Position numbers and translations under genes: made by a program. From Rhodobacter ferrooxidans (GTDB lineage Bacteria > Pseudomonadota > Alphaproteobacteria > Rhodobacterales > Rhodobacteraceae): 64,000 nucleotides of DNA. The notes beneath the pieces were generated by a model that was not told the DNA's origin, searched no databases, and saw only the letters and a program-made list of their open reading frames with translations. The stretch is taken from contig NZ_ACYY01000001.1 in the NCBI RefSeq assembly GCF_000176015.1, positions 62,001-126,000 of the forward strand, in the 5' to 3' direction. Numbering within the stretch: the first letter of the stretch is position 1; the number at the start of each line of letters is the position of its first letter. Of this stretch, positions 3,930-32,675 are shown in pieces.

Positions 3930-5068
3930 CGGGCCCGCGTCATCATCGGCGCCAGTGCCACCACCACGAGCAAGGCCAGAGCGGCAAAGCCGAAGGCCGC
4001 GCGCAGGCCAAAGGCGCCCGCAATGAAGCCCAGTGTCGGCGGCCCGAAGAAATAGCCGAAATACCCCAGCACCGTGGCCCGCGCCACCGCCCGCGCCCGC
4101 GCCTCGGGCGCCGCCATCTGCCCCACCAGTGAAAACGCCGTCGGCGCGACGACCGAGGCCCCCAGCCCCAGCACGATGAACCCGGCATAGGCCATCGCTG
4201 GCCCTGTCGCCGCCGCCGCCACCAGCGCCCCGAACGCCGCCAGCAGCGCCCCGCCGGTCAGCAGCATCCGCGCCGAGATGCGCGACAGCAGCCCCTGCCC
4301 CGCCAGCCGCGCCAGCCCCATGGTCAGCGCCATCACCGCAGGCCCCAGACTGCCCTGCGTCGGGCTGCCGCCAAGGGTCTTTTCGATATGCAAAGCCGAC
4401 CAGTTCTCGGCGGCGTTTTCCGACAGGAAGGCGATCAGCACAATCGCCCCGCCGATCAGCGGCACCACGCCCAGACCGGCCACCTTTTCGCCCTTGGGTT
4501 TCTTCAACCCGACAATCCGGCCATCGCGCTCATAGGCCAGCAACGCCAACCCCACCGAAACCGCCGCCGCCGCCCCCAGCACCATGCCCGGCGTCCACCC
4601 CGCACCACGGGCAAGACCGGTGGCCAGCGCCCCCGCGGCATAGCCCAGCGAATAGGCGGCGTGGCACAGGTTCATCAGATGGATGCCGCGATCGTTTTCC
4701 AGTGCCGCGACGCGCGCGTTCATCAGCACGTCCAGCGTGCCGGTGCTGGCACCACAAGCCGCCATGCTCAGCGCGAACACCCACAAAACCGCCGCCTGCC
4801 CCGGCAGAAAGAACGCGCCAGCCATCGCCAGCATCCCCAAAGGCAGCGCCAGCCGCCCCAGCACCCCGGCGGTAAAAGGCGCTGCCAGCATTGCAGAAAC
4901 CGCTGCCACCGGGGCTGCCAGCATCAGCAGACCCAGCGTCGCCTCGTTGATCCCCAGCATCGCCTTGGTGTCGGGCAACACCGCCGCAAAGCTGCCCCAT
5001 AGCACGCCCATGGCGGCAAAAGCCGCCAGCGCCGGACGGGCGACAACAAGGGTGGACGAAAGGCGCAT
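3926..5068 (-). CDS. MFS transporter (YbjJ-like)
   Basis: Inner-membrane secondary transporter of 380 residues with about 12 hydrophobic segments in two halves; substrate unknown. I chose ATG 5068, which has GGAG 8 bases upstream, over a GTG at 5095 with no spacer. The segment with DVLMNARVAALE and LCHAAYSLGYAAGA resembles the central region of YbjJ/FucP-like permeases. No sugar-binding signature allows a substrate call. It converges on the kinase gene, overlapping it by four bases at the stop codons, so it is probably not in the same transcription unit. Confidence 0.78.
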   Translation of the reverse strand: MRLSSTLVVARPALAAFAAMGVLWGSFAAVLPDTKAMLGINEATLGLLMLAAPVAAVSAMLAAPFTAGVLGRLALPLGMLAMAGAFFLPGQAAVLWVFALSMAACGASTGTLDVLMNARVAALENDRGIHLMNLCHAAYSLGYAAGALATGLARGAGWTPGMVLGAAAAVSVGLALLAYERDGRIVGLKKPKGEKVAGLGVVPLIGGAIVLIAFLSENAAENWSALHIEKTLGGSPTQGSLGPAVMALTMGLARLAGQGLLSRISARMLLTGGALLAAFGALVAAAATGPAMAYAGFIVLGLGASVVAPTAFSLVGQMAAPEARARAVARATVLGYFGYFFGPPTLGFIAGAFGLRAAFGFAALALLVVVALAPMMTRAR

Positions 5069-5256
5069 GAAGGGCTCCGGCGTGAAGGCAGACACCTACC
5101 CCGCGCCCATCAGACCGGCAAGCCTGCCCCCGACACGCGCCGGAACGGCGGCGACACCGATTCCCGCTTTCCTTTCGCGGCGAACTGGGCTAATGCCCCC
5201 CGGTCGCGCCATGCACCCTTGGAGGATGGCGGACTTATTAACAATGGAGAACCTCT

Positions 5257-5868
5257 ATGACTGGTAAGATCCCGGATCTTAGCGTCGAGGTACGGATGGG
5301 GACAGGCAAGGGGGCCGCCCGTCAAGCTCGTCGTGAGGGCTACGTACCCGGCATCGTTTATGGCGACGGCAAAGAGCCGCAGGCCATCAACGTGAAATAC
5401 TACACCCTGCTGAAGCGCCTGAAGGCCGGCCGCTTCCTGCAAACCCTGTTCAACCTCAAGATCGAGGGTCAGGACGACGTGCGCGTGATCTGCCGTGGCG
5501 TGCAGCGCGACGTGGTGAAAGACCTGCCGACGCATGTCGATTTCATGCGCCTGCATCAGGCCAGCCGGGTGAACCTGTTCATCCATGTGACCTTCATCAA
5601 CCACGAAGCCTCGCCGGGCCTGAAACGCGGTGGCGCGCTGGTGGTGGTGCGGCCGGAAGTCGAACTGGAAGTGACCGCGGGCGATATTCCCGATCACATC
5701 ACGGTTGACCTCGCGGGCCGCAACATCGGTGACGTGATCCACATCCAGGACGTGGTGCTGCCGGAAGGCGCCGCCCCGACCATCGACCGCAACTTCGTGA
5801 TCGCCAACATCTCGGCGCCCTCGGGTCTGCGCTCGTCGGACAACGAAGGCGAAGAAGCCGAAGCCTGA
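5257..5868 (+). CDS. rplY: 50S ribosomal protein L25/general stress protein Ctc
   Basis: Binds 5S rRNA in the large ribosomal subunit. The 203-residue length is the Ctc/TL5 form with an N-terminal L25 domain ([20 protein letters not shown]) and a C-terminal beta domain ([18 protein letters not shown]), ending in an acidic tail. ATG 5257 follows GGAG at short spacing. It is monocistronic here: a divergent MFS gene lies upstream and a strong hairpin terminator (5892-5925) lies 24 bases after the stop. In many alphaproteobacteria rplY is followed by pth. Here a glycosyltransferase on the opposite strand lies between them. Confidence 0.96.
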
Positions 5869-5891
5869 TCGGGTTTCAACGACATCAAGCG

Positions 5892-5925
5892 AAAGGCGCG
5901 GGCAGGGCAACCTCCCGCGCCTTTT
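5892..5925. terminator. Intrinsic terminator between rplY and the convergent glycosyltransferase gene
   Basis: An 11-bp perfect stem, AAAGGCGCGGG (5892-5902) with CCCGCGCCTTT (5914-5924), encloses an 11-base loop and continues into TTTT on the plus strand. The AAA on the left side becomes UUU on the minus strand, so it can work in both directions. It lies between the rplY stop (5868) and the glycosyltransferase stop (5927). Confidence 0.9.
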
Positions 5926-5926
5926 G

Positions 5927-6925
5927 CTATGCCGCTGGCCCCTCCAGCATCGCCCGCAGGTGATAGGCGTGGCGCGGGTCGTCGGCCACCGGCCGCCCGG
6001 CCTTGGCACAAAGCTGCGCCAGATAATCCAGACAGCAATGCTGGTGCAGAAGCGCCACTCCCGGCAGCGCCATCGCCTGCGCGTGCACCGCATCAAAGAC
6101 CGCGGCCTGCCGCAGCGCCGCGGCGTCGCGCTGTTCGTTGCGGTTGGTGGAATTGTAGTAGCTGTCGTTGTAACGGTCGCTCAGCGACACCGGCGACAGC
6201 GTGCCGCGCTTCAGCGCAAAGCTTTCCTCGCTGCGCAGCATGTAGTGGTTCATCTGCGCCGCCGTATGGCTGGCCAGCGCCCTTGGCAGCTTGCGCAGAT
6301 AGCCGGTGCCAGCGGGAGGCCAGTCGGGCACCGCCACACCATCGCAATTCACCATGCCACAACCGGGGGCGCCGACCTTCGCAGGGGCAAGCCTCTTCGG
6401 CCCGTGTTCGCCCAGCGCGCCAAACCAGCCCGGCTGGCGGTGCAGCACCTTGACCCAGCGCGAGATCGGGTCGGCCAGCAGCCCCGCCCGTTGAAACTGC
6501 CGGTGCACCAGCCCCTCGGCCCAGTTCTGCCGCCCGCCGGTGCCGAACACCTTCCAGTTGATCGCCATCGCCAGAAACCCCGGATCGGCCGTGGGCAACA
6601 GATCGCTGATCCGGCCTTCGCCGCTGTGGATCACCAGAAACTCGTCAACATCGCAGACCAGCAGCCAGTCAGCCCCCGCCACTGCCGGATGCAGCTTGGC
6701 TGCCTTTAGCTTGCGCGGGGTGATCCTTTGCCCCGCCGGCACGTCGCAACGCAGATGCGTGACCCAGCCCGCCGATTGCAATGCGTCCAGCAGGTCGGGC
6801 GAATGGTCGGTGCAATCGTTGGTCACCACCACGATGTCGGTGAAACCGATCTGCCGATACCAGCACACCCATTCCAGCAGGAACGGCCCCTCGTTGCGCA
6901 TCGAACAGACAACCGTGTACCGCAA
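5927..6925 (-). CDS. Glycosyltransferase family 2-like protein
   Basis: Probable sugar transferase acting on a cell-surface or secreted glycan. The conserved start of this family ([17 protein letters not shown]) is preserved and is followed by the nucleotide-sugar motif DVDEFL with its DxD. A mid-region HRQFQRAG and a C-terminal His/Cys-rich HQHCCLDYL complete the chain. The family normally begins before YTVVCS, but no ATG exists there. I propose TTG 6925 (AGGG just upstream), giving 332 residues; ATG 6901 is the alternative but would cut the first strand. The gene is divergent from pth and isolated, so the acceptor is unknown. Confidence 0.7.
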
Positions 6926-7057
6926 GGCCCTGCCACCGTTACCAAACCAGCCGCCAGCCTGCGCCGGGCCGCAGCTTACGTCAAGCGCCGCAAGCCCTTG
7001 CGCTGGGGGGGCTGCATCGGCGAAACTGGCCTTACACGCAACGGCGGAAAGACCGGC

Positions 7058-7765
7058 ATGAAACTCTTCGCAGGCCTCGGCAACCCCGGCGCGAAATACG
7101 CGGGCAACCGGCACAACATCGGCTTCATGGCGGTGGACCGGATCGCCGCCGACCACGGCTTTGGCCCCTGGCGGTCGCGGTTTCAGGGGCTGGCCGCCGA
7201 GGGCAGCTTGGGCGGTGAAAAGCTGGTGCTGCTGAAACCCGCCACCTTCATGAACCTGTCGGGCCAGTCGGTGGCCGAGGCGCTGCGGTTCTACAAGCTG
7301 ACGCCCGCCGATCTGGTGGTGTTCCACGACGAGCTTGACCTCGCCCCCGGCAAGGCGCGGGTGAAACAGGGCGGCGGCCATGCCGGCCACAACGGCCTGC
7401 GCTCGATCCACGCCCATATCGGCGAGGCTTACGGCCGGGTGCGGCTGGGCATCGGCCATCCGGGGCACAAGGATGCGGTGGCGGCCTATGTGCTGAACGA
7501 TTTCGCCAAGGCTGATGCGGACTGGCTGGAGGATTTGCTGCACGGCATCTCGGACGGTGCTGCCCTGCTGGCCGCAGGCGACGGCGCGCGCTTCCTGAAT
7601 GCCTTGGCGCTGCGCACCGCCCCGCCGCGGGTTTCCAGCGGTGCTGCGGATCGGCAACGGGCGGGCGCGGCCTCACTTGGTGAGGCCGCGCCCGCCCCCG
7701 CCCCGACAATCGAGCCCGCCGACACCCGCACCCCGCTGCAACGCCTGACCGACCGCTTCCGATGA
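7058..7765 (+). CDS. pth: Peptidyl-tRNA hydrolase
   Basis: Cytoplasmic esterase that recycles peptidyl-tRNA released from stalled ribosomes. The 235-residue product has the invariant GLGNPG near the N-terminus, catalytic His19 in NRHNIG, the FMNLSG substrate loop, HDELDL with its Asp, and GHNGLRSI. A Pro/Ala-rich tail of about 45 residues follows the core, as in Rhodobacter relatives. ATG 7058 follows GGAAAG. The stop overlaps the next gene's start in ATGA, suggesting translational coupling to the DUF2332 gene. Confidence 0.96.
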
Positions 7766-27581: not shown

Positions 27582-28382
27582 TCAGCGCTGTTCGCTGCGC
27601 TGCCGCAGTCGCGCCTCCAGCTTGCGCAGGCCCAGCGACAGCGTCACCGTCATGGTCAGATAGATCAGTGCCACCACATTATAGGTCTCGAAATAGCGGA
27701 AATTTCCGGCCGAGGTGACCTTGCCCAGTTGCGTGACATCCGCCACCCCAAGCACCGACACCAGGCTGGAATCCTTCACCATCGCCACGAAATCATTGCC
27801 CAGCGGCGGCAGGATGGTGCGGAAGGCCTGCGGGAACACGATATGGCGAAACCGCTGCCAGCCGTTCAGGCCCAGCGCCTGCGCCGCCTCGATCTGGCCC
27901 TTGTCCACCGACAGAAGACCCGCCCGGAACACCTCGGCCAGAAACGCCGCATAGGCCAGGGTCAGCGCGATCACCGCCCGCCACAGCAGGCTGAAATCCC
28001 GCGATTTCAGCGGGTCGAACCCCAAGGGCCCGGTGGCCCAGTTCCACGCCAGCACCAGCGCCGGCGTGGCCGCGAAGGCCACATACAGCAGCAGCACGAT
28101 GATCGGCACACCGCGCACCACTTCGACATAGAACCGCGCCGCCTGCCGCAACGCCAGGAACCGCGATTGCGCCGCCAGCGCCAGCCCCAGCCCGATCAGG
28201 CAGGCCAGCGCAAAGCCCACCAGTGTCACGAACACGGTGATGCGGATGCCCTTGGACAGAGTCGCCAGCACCTGCGCATAGACCGGGCTGGCCCAGACCT
28301 CGTAGAACATCCAGCAGACCAAGCCCGCCAGCAGCACCAGCCACCACGGAAAATCCCGGTCGGAATCGTGACGTGAAGCCAT
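27582..28382 (-). CDS. Amino-acid ABC transporter permease (HisM/ArtQ family)
   Basis: Inner-membrane channel subunit for a polar amino-acid importer. The 266-residue product has five to six hydrophobic helices and the EAA loop EAAQALGLNGWQRFRHIVFP that docks the ATPase. VVRGVPIIVLLLYV in the middle is typical of the HisMQ permeases. It follows the binding-protein gene by 38 bases. No ATP-binding gene is found within this cluster, so it must use a subunit encoded elsewhere. Confidence 0.88.
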   Translation of the reverse strand: MASRHDSDRDFPWWLVLLAGLVCWMFYEVWASPVYAQVLATLSKGIRITVFVTLVGFALACLIGLGLALAAQSRFLALRQAARFYVEVVRGVPIIVLLLYVAFAATPALVLAWNWATGPLGFDPLKSRDFSLLWRAVIALTLAYAAFLAEVFRAGLLSVDKGQIEAAQALGLNGWQRFRHIVFPQAFRTILPPLGNDFVAMVKDSSLVSVLGVADVTQLGKVTSAGNFRYFETYNVVALIYLTMTVTLSLGLRKLEARLRQRSEQR

Positions 28383-28420: not shown

Positions 28421-29209
28421 TCATTGGCCCATCTTGTAGTCGAGGAACCACTTGGTGTTCAGCTTGTCCAAGGTGCCATCAGCCTTCATCTCGGCAATCG
28501 CCGCGTTGACCGGCGCCACCAGATCCGAGCCCTTGGGGAAGATGAAGCCGAAATCCTCGGCCCCCAGCTTGTCACCGACGATCTTCAGCTTGCCCTCCGA
28601 GGAGGCCACATAGCCGTTGCCCGCCGTGCCATCGGTCAGCACCAGATCGACATCGCCCGCGCGCAAGGCTTCGACGCCGGCGCCGAAGGTCTCGAACATC
28701 TTGATGCGCGGGTTGGCCTCGTTGCCGTCCAGCACCTCGTAGACGCCCACATAGAACGGCGTGGTGCCGGGCTGGGCGGCCATCAGCAATTCAGGGTTGG
28801 CGCCGAAAGATTTGGCATCGGTAAAACGCGCCTCGTCGCCACGCACCAGCATCACCATTTCCGAGCGCATGTAGGGATCAGAGAAATCAACCTGTTCCTT
28901 GCGGTCGTCGCGGATGGTGATGCCGGTCATCCCCATGTCGTATTCGCCGCCCGACACCGCCGGGATCATCGCATCCCAACTGCTGTTGGCATAGCTGACC
29001 TTCAGGTTCAGCCGCTTGGCCATCTCGGCCACCGCATCATATTCCCAGCCGATCGCCGCCCCCTGCGCATCCAGAAACTGCAACGGCGGATAGGCGTTTT
29101 CGGTCACCACCACCACCTCGCGCCCGGCCAGATCGGGCAAGGCTTCGGCGGCGGCAAAATTGGCACCCAGGGCCAGAACCAGCCCGGCAAAGGCAGCAGT
29201 CAGTTTCAT
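28421..29209 (-). CDS. Amino-acid ABC transporter substrate-binding protein
   Basis: Periplasmic receptor of the SBP_bac_3 family, 262 residues, starting [20 protein letters not shown] at ATG 29209 with GGAG 7 bases upstream. A Sec signal is removed near residue 20. Typical strands are [36 protein letters not shown] and [17 protein letters not shown]-terminal [18 protein letters not shown] closes the fold. It heads an operon with the downstream permease. The ligand cannot be told. Confidence 0.9.
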
Positions 29210-29281
29210 CAGGGGACTCCATGTCACGAGCGATGCGTGACTATGGCCGCGCCCCTGCCGGTATGCAAGCGGGTGCCAGCG

Positions 29282-30073
29282 TCAGGGCAGGATTCCCAGC
29301 AGCGATTTCACCCCCACCGGATCACCGCCGGGCCGCAAACCGGCCAGACTGCCGACCGGCGATTTGCGGCGCTTGGCATAGAAGGCGGTCGAGATCGGCG
29401 GTGCCAGCGCCAGCACCGAAAACGTCATCTCGGTGCGCGCCACCTCGCCGCAAATCTCGGTGTCGTGGTTGGCCGCGTCGGTATAATCCTTGGTCATCGA
29501 GAATTCGGTGGCATTGGGCAGCGAGTTGAACGAGTTGTGCACCGTCACCGGGCCAAAGCCCAGCCGTCCCAGCGCAGCACCGCTGAAGGCCACCGAATCC
29601 GCCAGCACCAGGCCGTTGCAGGGGCCGCGCGGCTCCCATCCCAGAAATTTTGCCACCGGATCGGTGACCGAGCCCAAGGCAAAACCCAGCGCCGCGCCGA
29701 TCGGCCCGCCAATGGCACCGATGGCGGTGGTCAGGATCTCGTCCATGATCTTCAGTTGCAGCCGTTCGGCGTCCTGATCCGAGATCTGGCTGTCGCTGGT
29801 ATTGGTTGCAGTAAAGATCACGTCCACCGCGTCGTCGGGCTCCAGTTCGAAAGGCCCGATGATCCAGTTCAGTGCCGCGCCGCGCCGGCTGGTCATCGCC
29901 ACCGCCGCCGTCGGCACTTGCGTATTGTCGGCCAGCGCCGGAAACAGCCCCGCACCCGCGCCGCGCTCGACCTTGTTGACCAGCACCGCAAAGGTCACCA
30001 CATCGGAATCGGTCAGCTTGCCGCGCTTCACCAGCACATGCAAAAGATCCAGCCGGAAAGCGTAAAGTGCCAT
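29282..30073 (-). CDS. Unassigned 263-residue protein with central glycine-rich hydrophobic stretch
   Basis: I do not recognise this family. There is no signal peptide. The N-terminal part is predicted strand-rich (ALYAFRLDLLHVLV, PAALNWIIGPF-like segments), followed by an acidic DAERLQLKIM helix. The segment TTAIGAIGGPIGAALGFALG (about 115-134) is a hydrophobic glycine-zipper-like stretch. The C-terminal half has PCNGLVLADSVAFS and TEICGEVARTEMTF, with Cys152 and Cys208. ATG 30073 has GGGGGG six bases upstream; GTG 30079 lacks spacing. It follows 12 bases after the 149-residue partner gene, so the two form an operon. Function unknown. Confidence 0.6.
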   Translation of the reverse strand: MALYAFRLDLLHVLVKRGKLTDSDVVTFAVLVNKVERGAGAGLFPALADNTQVPTAAVAMTSRRGAALNWIIGPFELEPDDAVDVIFTATNTSDSQISDQDAERLQLKIMDEILTTAIGAIGGPIGAALGFALGSVTDPVAKFLGWEPRGPCNGLVLADSVAFSGAALGRLGFGPVTVHNSFNSLPNATEFSMTKDYTDAANHDTEICGEVARTEMTFSVLALAPPISTAFYAKRRKSPVGSLAGLRPGGDPVGVKSLLGILP

Positions 30074-30085
30074 GGCCACGCCCCC

Positions 30086-30535
30086 CTATTCGGTGCCGGT
30101 GACGCGGGCACCCAGCGCGATCTGCCGCCAGGAGGTGAGGGTCAGCGACCGCCCCCTGCCTTCGCAGAGCCACAGCGAGGTGGTCGGCTCCATCAGCACC
30201 ACCTCGTTGTCACCGACATGCTCGACCACCAGCAGATCGCCAATGGCGCCGTCTTTCGGCAACCTGGCGGTGGCAGGCGTGGTCGATTGCGTCAGCACCC
30301 GCAGGCTGGCGCGCAACCCGTTGATGGTGACGCCACCGGGATAGTCGTTGTTGAAATTGATCGTCAGCCCGTCGCTTTGATCATGCACCAGTGCGCGGCG
30401 GAACGGCCCGCCATGCCCGCCGCGGCGCGCGGCCGAGTCGAGGATCACGTCGGTTCCCTTGACGTTCAGCACATTGGCCTCGACGGTGACCCAGCTTGCG
30501 TCACTGCCGTCATTGAGTTTCACATCGCTCGACAT
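30086..30535 (-). CDS. Unassigned 149-residue protein, first gene of a two-gene operon
   Basis: A soluble, apparently beta-rich protein without signal peptide or membrane helix; I cannot assign it. It opens SSDVKLNDGSDASWVTVEAN and continues with INFNNDYPGGVTINGL and LLVVEHVGDNEVVLMEPT, ending with a Trp/Cys-containing strand (SLWLCEGRGRSL). ATG 30535 has GAGGATCGG upstream. GC content matches the neighbours. The partner downstream (29282-30073) probably depends on it. The upstream region is shared with a divergent hydrolase gene. Confidence 0.6.
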   Translation of the reverse strand: MSSDVKLNDGSDASWVTVEANVLNVKGTDVILDSAARRGGHGGPFRRALVHDQSDGLTINFNNDYPGGVTINGLRASLRVLTQSTTPATARLPKDGAIGDLLVVEHVGDNEVVLMEPTTSLWLCEGRGRSLTLTSWRQIALGARVTGTE

Positions 30536-30882
30536 TTCCGATCCTCATGTTGGCACCCTCGGCTGGCGCTGGGCCAACCGGTTGGGCGAATGGATGGGTT
30601 TCAAGCCAGAAGCGCGCGCACAGCGGTTGCTGTGTCGGTCGCTGAAACAATTGAAATCAACAGGAATCCGCCCGAAAATCAGGGCAGCAAGACACCGGCA
30701 AAGGCCGCAAGAATCATTCATTCACAATACATGTTTCAAGGCGAAAATCAACGTGGCAGTCGGCCCGCCCCGCAGCGCCACGGCAGGCGAAACAGTCGCA
30801 GCCCGCAGTACGGGCGGTGGTTTGACAAGACCCGCCCGCAGGTCCACCTTGCGCGCGGCCCCTGCAACAGGAACCGGCACCG
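30536..30882. other. Intergenic region upstream of the unassigned operon and the divergent hydrolase
   Basis: A 347-base non-coding gap, the lowest-GC part being 30600-30740. It contains the perfect 12-bp palindrome CCAACCGGTTGG (30574-30585), a possible operator. No conserved reading frame, no strong terminator and no clear -35/-10 pair were found. Both divergent genes presumably start transcription here. Confidence 0.4.
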
Positions 30883-31683
30883 ATGACAACCGACCCGATC
30901 CGGCTATATTTCCACGGCCTGCCCGGCAGCCCGTCCGAGCTTGCCGCCCTTGGCCTGCCCGATGATGCCCCGGCCCTGCACCCGGTCGCTCGGCTGTCGC
31001 TGCTGGACAAGGCCGCCGACCATGCCGCAGGCATCGACGCCCTTGCCGCCGCAATCGCCAAAAACCACCCGCAAGGCCCGCTGCATCTGGTGGGCTTTTC
31101 ACTGGGGGCGATGACGGCGCTGATGGTCGCGGCACGCTTGGGCGCGCGGGTGGAAAAGATCGAGCTGATCTCTGCCGCAGCCCCGCTGGAGCTGGGCGAT
31201 TTCCTGCCGCAGATGGCGGGGCGCGCGGTGTTCAAGGCCGCCCGCGATGGCGGCTTGAAGTTCACCGCCCTGATGGCCGCCGAGCGCGCCTTTGCCCACA
31301 AGATGCCGCTGCACCTGTTCAACACGCTGTTTGCCGGGGCCAACGGTGCCGATGCCGCACTTGCCACCCAGCCGCGCTTCAAGACCGGCATTGCGGCCTG
31401 CATCCGCGGTTGCGTGGTTGACCACCTGCCCGCCTACAAGGCCGAGCTGTTGGCCTATGCCCACCCCTGGGCCACGGTGCTGGACGGCATCACCACCCCG
31501 GTCACGCTGTGGCATGGCAGCGACGACACCTGGACGCCAGTGGCCATGGCGCAGGTGATGCAGGCCCGCCTGCCCAATGCGACGCTGATCGAACTGCCGG
31601 GCCTGTCGCATTACGCGACGCTGATCGAGGTGCTGGGCGCGCGCAAGCTTCAGGCCGACCCGCCGCAGACCGCACAGCCCTGA
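30883..31683 (+). CDS. Alpha/beta-fold hydrolase
   Basis: Predicted cytoplasmic esterase or hydrolase of 266 residues. It opens IRLYFHGLPGSPSEL, an oxyanion-hole HG motif, and has the nucleophile elbow LVGFSLGAM, the acid region LWHGSDDTWTP and the catalytic His in PGLSHYATL. AGGAAC precedes ATG 30883. Its 3' end overlaps the convergent MoeB gene by 34 bases. Substrate unknown; no operon partner is present. Confidence 0.82.
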   Translation: MTTDPIRLYFHGLPGSPSELAALGLPDDAPALHPVARLSLLDKAADHAAGIDALAAAIAKNHPQGPLHLVGFSLGAMTALMVAARLGARVEKIELISAAAPLELGDFLPQMAGRAVFKAARDGGLKFTALMAAERAFAHKMPLHLFNTLFAGANGADAALATQPRFKTGIAACIRGCVVDHLPAYKAELLAYAHPWATVLDGITTPVTLWHGSDDTWTPVAMAQVMQARLPNATLIELPGLSHYATLIEVLGARKLQADPPQTAQP

Positions 31684-32675
31684 CGCTTTTGCACGCCGAT
31701 CACCCGGCTTTCGCCATATAGCCCATCAAAGATCACCAGCCGCCCGCGCAAACCCTGGCCTGCGCCGGTGATCTCTTTTACCGCCTCCAGTGCCATCATC
31801 GCACCAATCACTCCCGGCAAGGGCGCCGCCACCCCCGCCTCGGCGCAGGTCGGCACCACACCGGGGGCAGGGCGCAGCGGGAACACACATTCGTAGCACG
31901 GCCCGCCGCGCGCCGGATCGTAAAGCCCGATCTGCCCCTCCCACTGGGTGATTGCCGCCGAAATCAACGGCTTGCCCAGGGTCACGCAGACCCGGTTCAC
32001 CAGATAGCGGGTGTCGAAATTGTCCGACCCGTCCAGCACCAGATCATATTCCGCCACCAGTTCCGCCGCGATATCTTCGGTCAGCCGCCGATTGTAGGGG
32101 CGCACCTCCACCAATGGATTAAGCGCCCGCATGACGATGGTGGCCGATTGCACCTTGGCCATGCCAAGCCGCGCGTCGGAGTGGATGATCTGGCGTTGCA
32201 GGTTGCTGACCTCGACCACGTCATCGTCAATCACCCCGATGCAACCCACCCCGCTGGCCGCCAGATACAACAGCGCCGAAGAGCCAAGCCCCCCCGCGCC
32301 GATCACCAGCACCTTCGCCGCGCGCAGCTTTTTCTGCCCCGGCCCGCCGATCTCGCGCAGCATGATGTGGCGGGCATAGCGTTCCGCCTCGCTTGGCGGC
32401 GCCACTGTGGCCACCACAGGCGCCAGCCGCCGCCGCAGCCGCCTGACCACCGCGCCATAGCCCAGCCCCAGCGCCACCGCCCCGCCCAGCACTGCCCAGA
32501 CCCGTGCCGATCCCCCCACCGCCACCCGCAAGCCATTGCCCTCAGGCAGCACCAGATGCGCCAGCATCACCGCCGCCCACAGCGCCGCAATCGCCGCCAG
32601 CCGCACCGAACCTGGCACCCGCATCCACGCGCCAAGCGCCCAGATCGCCAGCGCCAGCCCCAGAACCAGCCCCAT
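31650..32675 (-). CDS. moeB: MoeB/ThiF/HesA family adenylyltransferase with N-terminal membrane segments
   Basis: E1-like enzyme that adenylates a ubiquitin-like sulfur carrier, probably MoaD in molybdopterin synthesis. The first about 90 residues hold two or three hydrophobic segments and a basic RRLRRRL, a membrane anchor absent from E. coli MoeB. The catalytic domain starts at YARHIMLREIG. The nucleotide loop is VIGAGGLGSSAL (126-131), the adenylation region DGSDNFDTRYL, and the zinc cysteines lie in CYEC and CAVCG. There is no C-terminal rhodanese domain. Length 341. The start overlaps the dut stop by one base (TGATG). Confidence 0.87.
   Translation of the reverse strand: MGLVLGLALAIWALGAWMRVPGSVRLAAIAALWAAVMLAHLVLPEGNGLRVAVGGSARVWAVLGGAVALGLGYGAVVRRLRRRLAPVVATVAPPSEAERYARHIMLREIGGPGQKKLRAAKVLVIGAGGLGSSALLYLAASGVGCIGVIDDDVVEVSNLQRQIIHSDARLGMAKVQSATIVMRALNPLVEVRPYNRRLTEDIAAELVAEYDLVLDGSDNFDTRYLVNRVCVTLGKPLISAAITQWEGQIGLYDPARGGPCYECVFPLRPAPGVVPTCAEAGVAAPLPGVIGAMMALEAVKEITGAGQGLRGRLVIFDGLYGESRVIGVQKRQGCAVCGGSA

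Follow-up and report, generated by a model that had tools for sequence, protein, structure and literature searches.

Tail-fibre modules mostly occur as parts of long phage proteins, and a compact, free-standing copy outside phage would show such a binding module taken over for a different purpose. Other phyla may have proteins in which two beta domains surround a glycine zipper, accompanied by a C-[ND]-G...CG pattern. The locus described here brings a small protein with one such fibre module next to a protein with a glycine zipper; our literature search found nothing on this pair or on the module itself.

The two genes lie in tandem on the minus strand of the window (the whole stretch of 64,000 nucleotides that was analyzed). 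The upstream gene, P0001 (30086..30535, read from 30535 to 30086), encodes 149 aa from an ATG start; the downstream gene, P0002 (29282..30073, read from 30073 to 29282), encodes 263 aa, also from an ATG, and a GTG six bases 5′ of this codon would give an alternative product of 265 aa. The intergenic gap is 12 bases, a spacing that suggests co-transcription. Since the local DNA is 67% GC, long spurious open reading frames (ORFs) are common and many of them overlap the pair; we therefore compared all six frames. P0001 has a GC3 of 0.83 and a codon log-odds of +0.20 bits per codon, and P0002 has values of 0.80 and +0.39, respectively. Every competing frame has negative codon log-odds, including an ORF of 837 aa on the plus strand, and the GC3 and codon signature of neighboring known genes appears in the P0001 and P0002 frames only. 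Both are genuine coding genes, and the arrangement proposed in an earlier note on this DNA (two tandem genes of 149 and 263 residues, 12 bases apart) is borne out; the note had named no strand. The note had also reported that neither protein has a signal peptide, and by eye we too see no obvious signal peptide or export signal on either. Its description of both proteins as unassigned is correct insofar as neither has a significant match in Pfam, NCBIfam, PHROGs, PADLOC, or the PDB sequences (the anti-phage defence models of PADLOC also fail to match a divergent hydrolase nearby, described below), but it no longer applies to P0001.

Residues ∼15–78 of P0001 make up a phage tail-fibre module of ∼65 residues, present once (30302..30493, minus strand, ...GTDVILDSAARRGGHGGPFRRALVHDQSDGLTINFNNDYPGGVTING), located by alignment and hidden Markov model (HMM); the remainder (residues ∼80–149) is a unique, beta-rich C-terminal half. 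The RALVH/DYtGGV module is defined within the present analysis, with the consensus GTDf.lyn..RaG...h.gRALVH...D.L.iNY..DYtGGV.i.G. Across 10 aligned copies there are 11 invariant residues (RALVH, D, L, N, D, and GG), all of which are present in P0001, and a further set (G, D, R, Y, V, and G) is near-invariant. Against an HMM built from all other copies, with P0001 left out, P0001 scores 76.6 bits (E = 8.5e-23); against an HMM from the phage-contig fibre copies only, it scores 49.3 bits (E = 2.7e-14). The best of 1000 shuffles of P0001 reaches 12.0 bits, and no other ORF in the window has a comparable score. On these alignments and scores, P0001 almost certainly contains the tail-fibre module.

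Simpler searches did not reveal this relationship. P0001 as a lone query gave chance matches only in 398 genomes of the phylum, and tblastn of P0001 against plasmids and phages gave no match. A 65-aa query of guessed consensus sequence likewise gave chance matches only and carries no weight as evidence. With the improved module profile we find one copy in the present genome, whereas 145 other genera from the family have none. Pfam has no model for the module, although it recurs in fibres of phage contigs, in a P2-like prophage, and in bacteria; searched against the PDB, the module profile returns non-significant matches only, the best being a lactococcal phage baseplate receptor-binding protein (E = 0.76). 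For the C-terminal half no relative was detected, and its LWLC...WRQI motif pattern has no copy in the other module loci. The AlphaFold model of P0001, from two-sequence input, is unusable (pLDDT 34.5).

Other copies of the module were reached stepwise. Searching IMG/VR with a DNA pattern that encodes HDxxDGLT.N led to a relative of 153 aa (locus L011, 3662–4123), ∼42% identical to P0001 overall and ∼58% over the module, which directly follows two tail genes of P2 type, gpU and gpD, on the contig of a P2-like prophage; used as a tblastn query against plasmids and phages, it gave no match. Beside it, the prophage cargo (4902–7204 of the same locus) includes one protein weakly similar to type I restriction enzymes and another matching the candidate defence family PDC-M36A (2.7e-11). 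With a two-row profile of P0001 and this relative, a third copy turned up in the gammaproteobacterium G1375 (HMM E = 2e-17), in a 460-aa protein (L046, 7152–8534) with a Peptidase_S74 domain and many matches to tail-fibre PHROGs. Directly upstream of that protein (L046, 675–7091) is one of 2138 aa with Laminin_G_3 domains, and the two are possibly a functional pair. With a three-row profile, seven more viral contigs in IMG/VR (L047–L053) were recovered, in which the module lies, in some cases twice, inside fibre-like proteins of 733–2445 aa. The protein of L051 matches many PHROG tail-fibre families; those of L049 and L053 have no PHROG match, so that for these the label “fibre” rests on their repeat-rich architecture and the shared module. 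A second gammaproteobacterium, G1549, encodes a 709-aa protein (L055, 1033–3162; E = 6.6e-17) that joins the module to CTHRC1_C, a domain family whose name comes from a protein of animals. The module is found in the fibres of phage contigs, in a P2-like prophage, and in three or more bacterial genomes. Several candidates were discarded: a chance or antisense match (L002) opposite an RND efflux adaptor gene; matches L003, L004, L006, L007, and one in Shinella (L021), all chance or antisense of known genes; and matches in two genomes, G911 and G1024 (E ∼ 0.002), treated as chance.

P0002 has a central glycine-zipper segment and flanks that appear beta-rich by eye. The segment, TTAIGAIGGPIGAALGFALG, corresponds to residues 115–134 (29672..29731, minus strand), and a sequence scan shows that Gly122, 126, 130, and 134 make an exact GxxxGxxxGxxxG, which confirms the glycine-zipper-like stretch that the earlier note had pointed out. 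No other ORF of 100 aa or more in the window has a hydrophobic GxxxGxxxGxxxG. Averaged over 19 residues, Kyte-Doolittle hydropathy peaks at 1.61 (residues 113–131), a borderline value for a transmembrane helix; such a segment might insert into membranes or might mediate helix packing and oligomerisation. A pore-forming toxin was considered for P0002, but toward that reading the sequence offers this borderline hydrophobic zipper only. No Pfam family matches P0002 even at E = 10, including the Gly-zipper and outer-membrane 17-kDa antigen types. Searches within the phylum, in which the source genus is represented by one genome, gave chance matches only in 198 genomes of the same family and 390 of the same order (588 in all), and no relative was found in plasmids or phages (tblastn) or with patterns in GTDB contigs and IMG/VR. 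The single-sequence AlphaFold model is unusable (pLDDT 32.6). At the sensitivity reached here, P0002 is a true orphan. Both outcomes that the earlier note had set as refuting its idea of an undescribed system weigh on it: P0001 has a confident match to a phage tail-fibre module, and no P0002-like partner is found beside the other copies of the module, at either bacterial or phage loci. That idea is therefore not supported.

The pair sits in a segment of 2.4 kb (29228..31649) between thiF/moeB (31650–32675) and an ABC solute-binding gene (28421–29227). We compared this site with synteny in eight relatives from the family, drawn non-randomly from 20 in which the solute-binding gene is closely matched. 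Six of the eight have little or no DNA in the interval; the remaining two have ∼1 kb (L039) and ∼1.8 kb (L040). Since the interval is short or holds other cargo in relatives, the 2.4 kb represents a lineage-specific insertion at a variable site, unique to the present genome among these nine. On a small scale, the site resembles a hot spot for insertions. By eye, the cargo of L040 (∼5151–6819) is a family-3 glycoside hydrolase and that of L039 (∼1789–2865) a LigB-type dioxygenase. The insertion matches its surroundings in composition, and there are no repeats at its flanks that would point to a recent mobile element. It also carries the divergently transcribed alpha/beta hydrolase (30883..31683, plus strand; Pfam Abhydrolase_1, 5e-11). 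At E ≤ 1e-20 this gene is rare in the family, occurring in two of 61 genomes (the second copy is 37% identical), and it is absent at the syntenic site in all eight relatives; it may have arrived together with the pair. As for the flanking solute-binding gene, its listed GTG start is probably too early, and an ATG six codons in gives a normal-looking signal peptide.

We tentatively favor, with somewhat less than even confidence, a model in which a free-standing binder derived from a tail fibre is accompanied by a membrane-interacting orphan partner, the two having been acquired as lineage-specific accessory cargo between two conserved housekeeping genes. P0001 would consist of one beta-rich stalk module and, as its probable binding head, the short beta-rich C-terminal half. 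Because other copies of the module precede trimerising domains (Peptidase_S74 and CTHRC1_C) or, by eye, a coiled coil (L011), P0001 is by analogy probably a trimer, and probably binds a glycan or some other ligand on a surface. P0002 could be soluble or membrane-associated, with its central zipper segment inserting into or packing against a membrane, and P0001 would localise or present it. The pair might be used in surface attachment, or in antagonism towards other cells or phages. Given that no relative of P0002 accompanies the other module copies, the physical partnership that we infer rests on adjacency in one genome. Against the model also stand the borderline hydrophobicity of the zipper and the lack of a visible export signal that would bring either protein to a surface. 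We consider it improbable that the two genes make up a minimal system of their own, with a domesticated fibre protein of one module that targets a membrane-active zipper protein without a phage tail or secretion apparatus.

A degraded phage or prophage tail region could also have left such a pair behind, without present function. The fibre module itself, the position of the nearest full-length relative next to the tail genes of a P2-like prophage, and the variable site with its other cargo in relatives are all consistent with such an origin. However, both ORFs are intact, with the codon usage and GC content of the resident genome, and P0001 has the form of a compact gene that is complete in itself, not that of a fragment broken off a long fibre. 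Around the pair we see no integrase, no phage genes, and no att-like long direct or flanking repeats. We regard a remnant as unlikely, though worth keeping in view. Much the same weight is due to the view that the genes are functionally unrelated neighbors, P0001 a solitary fibre-type binder and P0002 an orphan that acts independently in the membrane or in stress. This accords with the occurrence of the module elsewhere without a P0002 relative and with the lack of any P0002 relatives, but the 12-base gap on one strand and the joint insertion at one site speak against it.

The genes on the other side of P0002 raise a further explanation, that P0001 and P0002 lead an amino-acid ABC transporter operon (28421–29227 and 27582–28382), contributing to its expression or merely riding on it. 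The strand is the same, and only 54 bases separate the stop of P0002 from the start codon annotated for the solute-binding gene. Yet the transporter genes occur at this site without the pair in eight relatives, and neither protein resembles a transporter part, which makes this explanation very doubtful.

Returning to the model of a free-standing binder with an orphan partner, we compare P0001 with the other contexts of its module. The flanking synteny block has no recognizable tail, baseplate, or secretion genes, which also weighs against the model. Since no phage genes were recognized in this block or among the listed ORFs, we regard P0001 as a free-standing relative of phage fibres rather than a phage fibre. 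The fibres of the viral contigs carry one or two copies of the module among many other segments, whereas P0001 has a single copy in 149 aa. The G1375 protein shares the module and, by eye, the lack of a signal peptide, but it has VGIGTT..P repeats and the Peptidase_S74 chaperone, a domain that Pfam does not detect in P0001, and its Laminin_G_3 neighbor has no similarity to P0002. The G1549 protein has a long N-terminal region and a C-terminal CTHRC1_C trimer domain, neither of which is present in P0001. The closest likeness is with the 153-aa protein of the P2-like prophage, which is also small and stand-alone with the module at its N terminus; it ends, by eye, in a coiled coil, in place of which P0001 has its own C-terminal half, and its downstream neighbor (205 aa) is unrelated to P0002. 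P0002 remains an orphan, and P0001 departs only slightly from a kind of part already known; at 149 aa it is also well suited to expression and structure determination.
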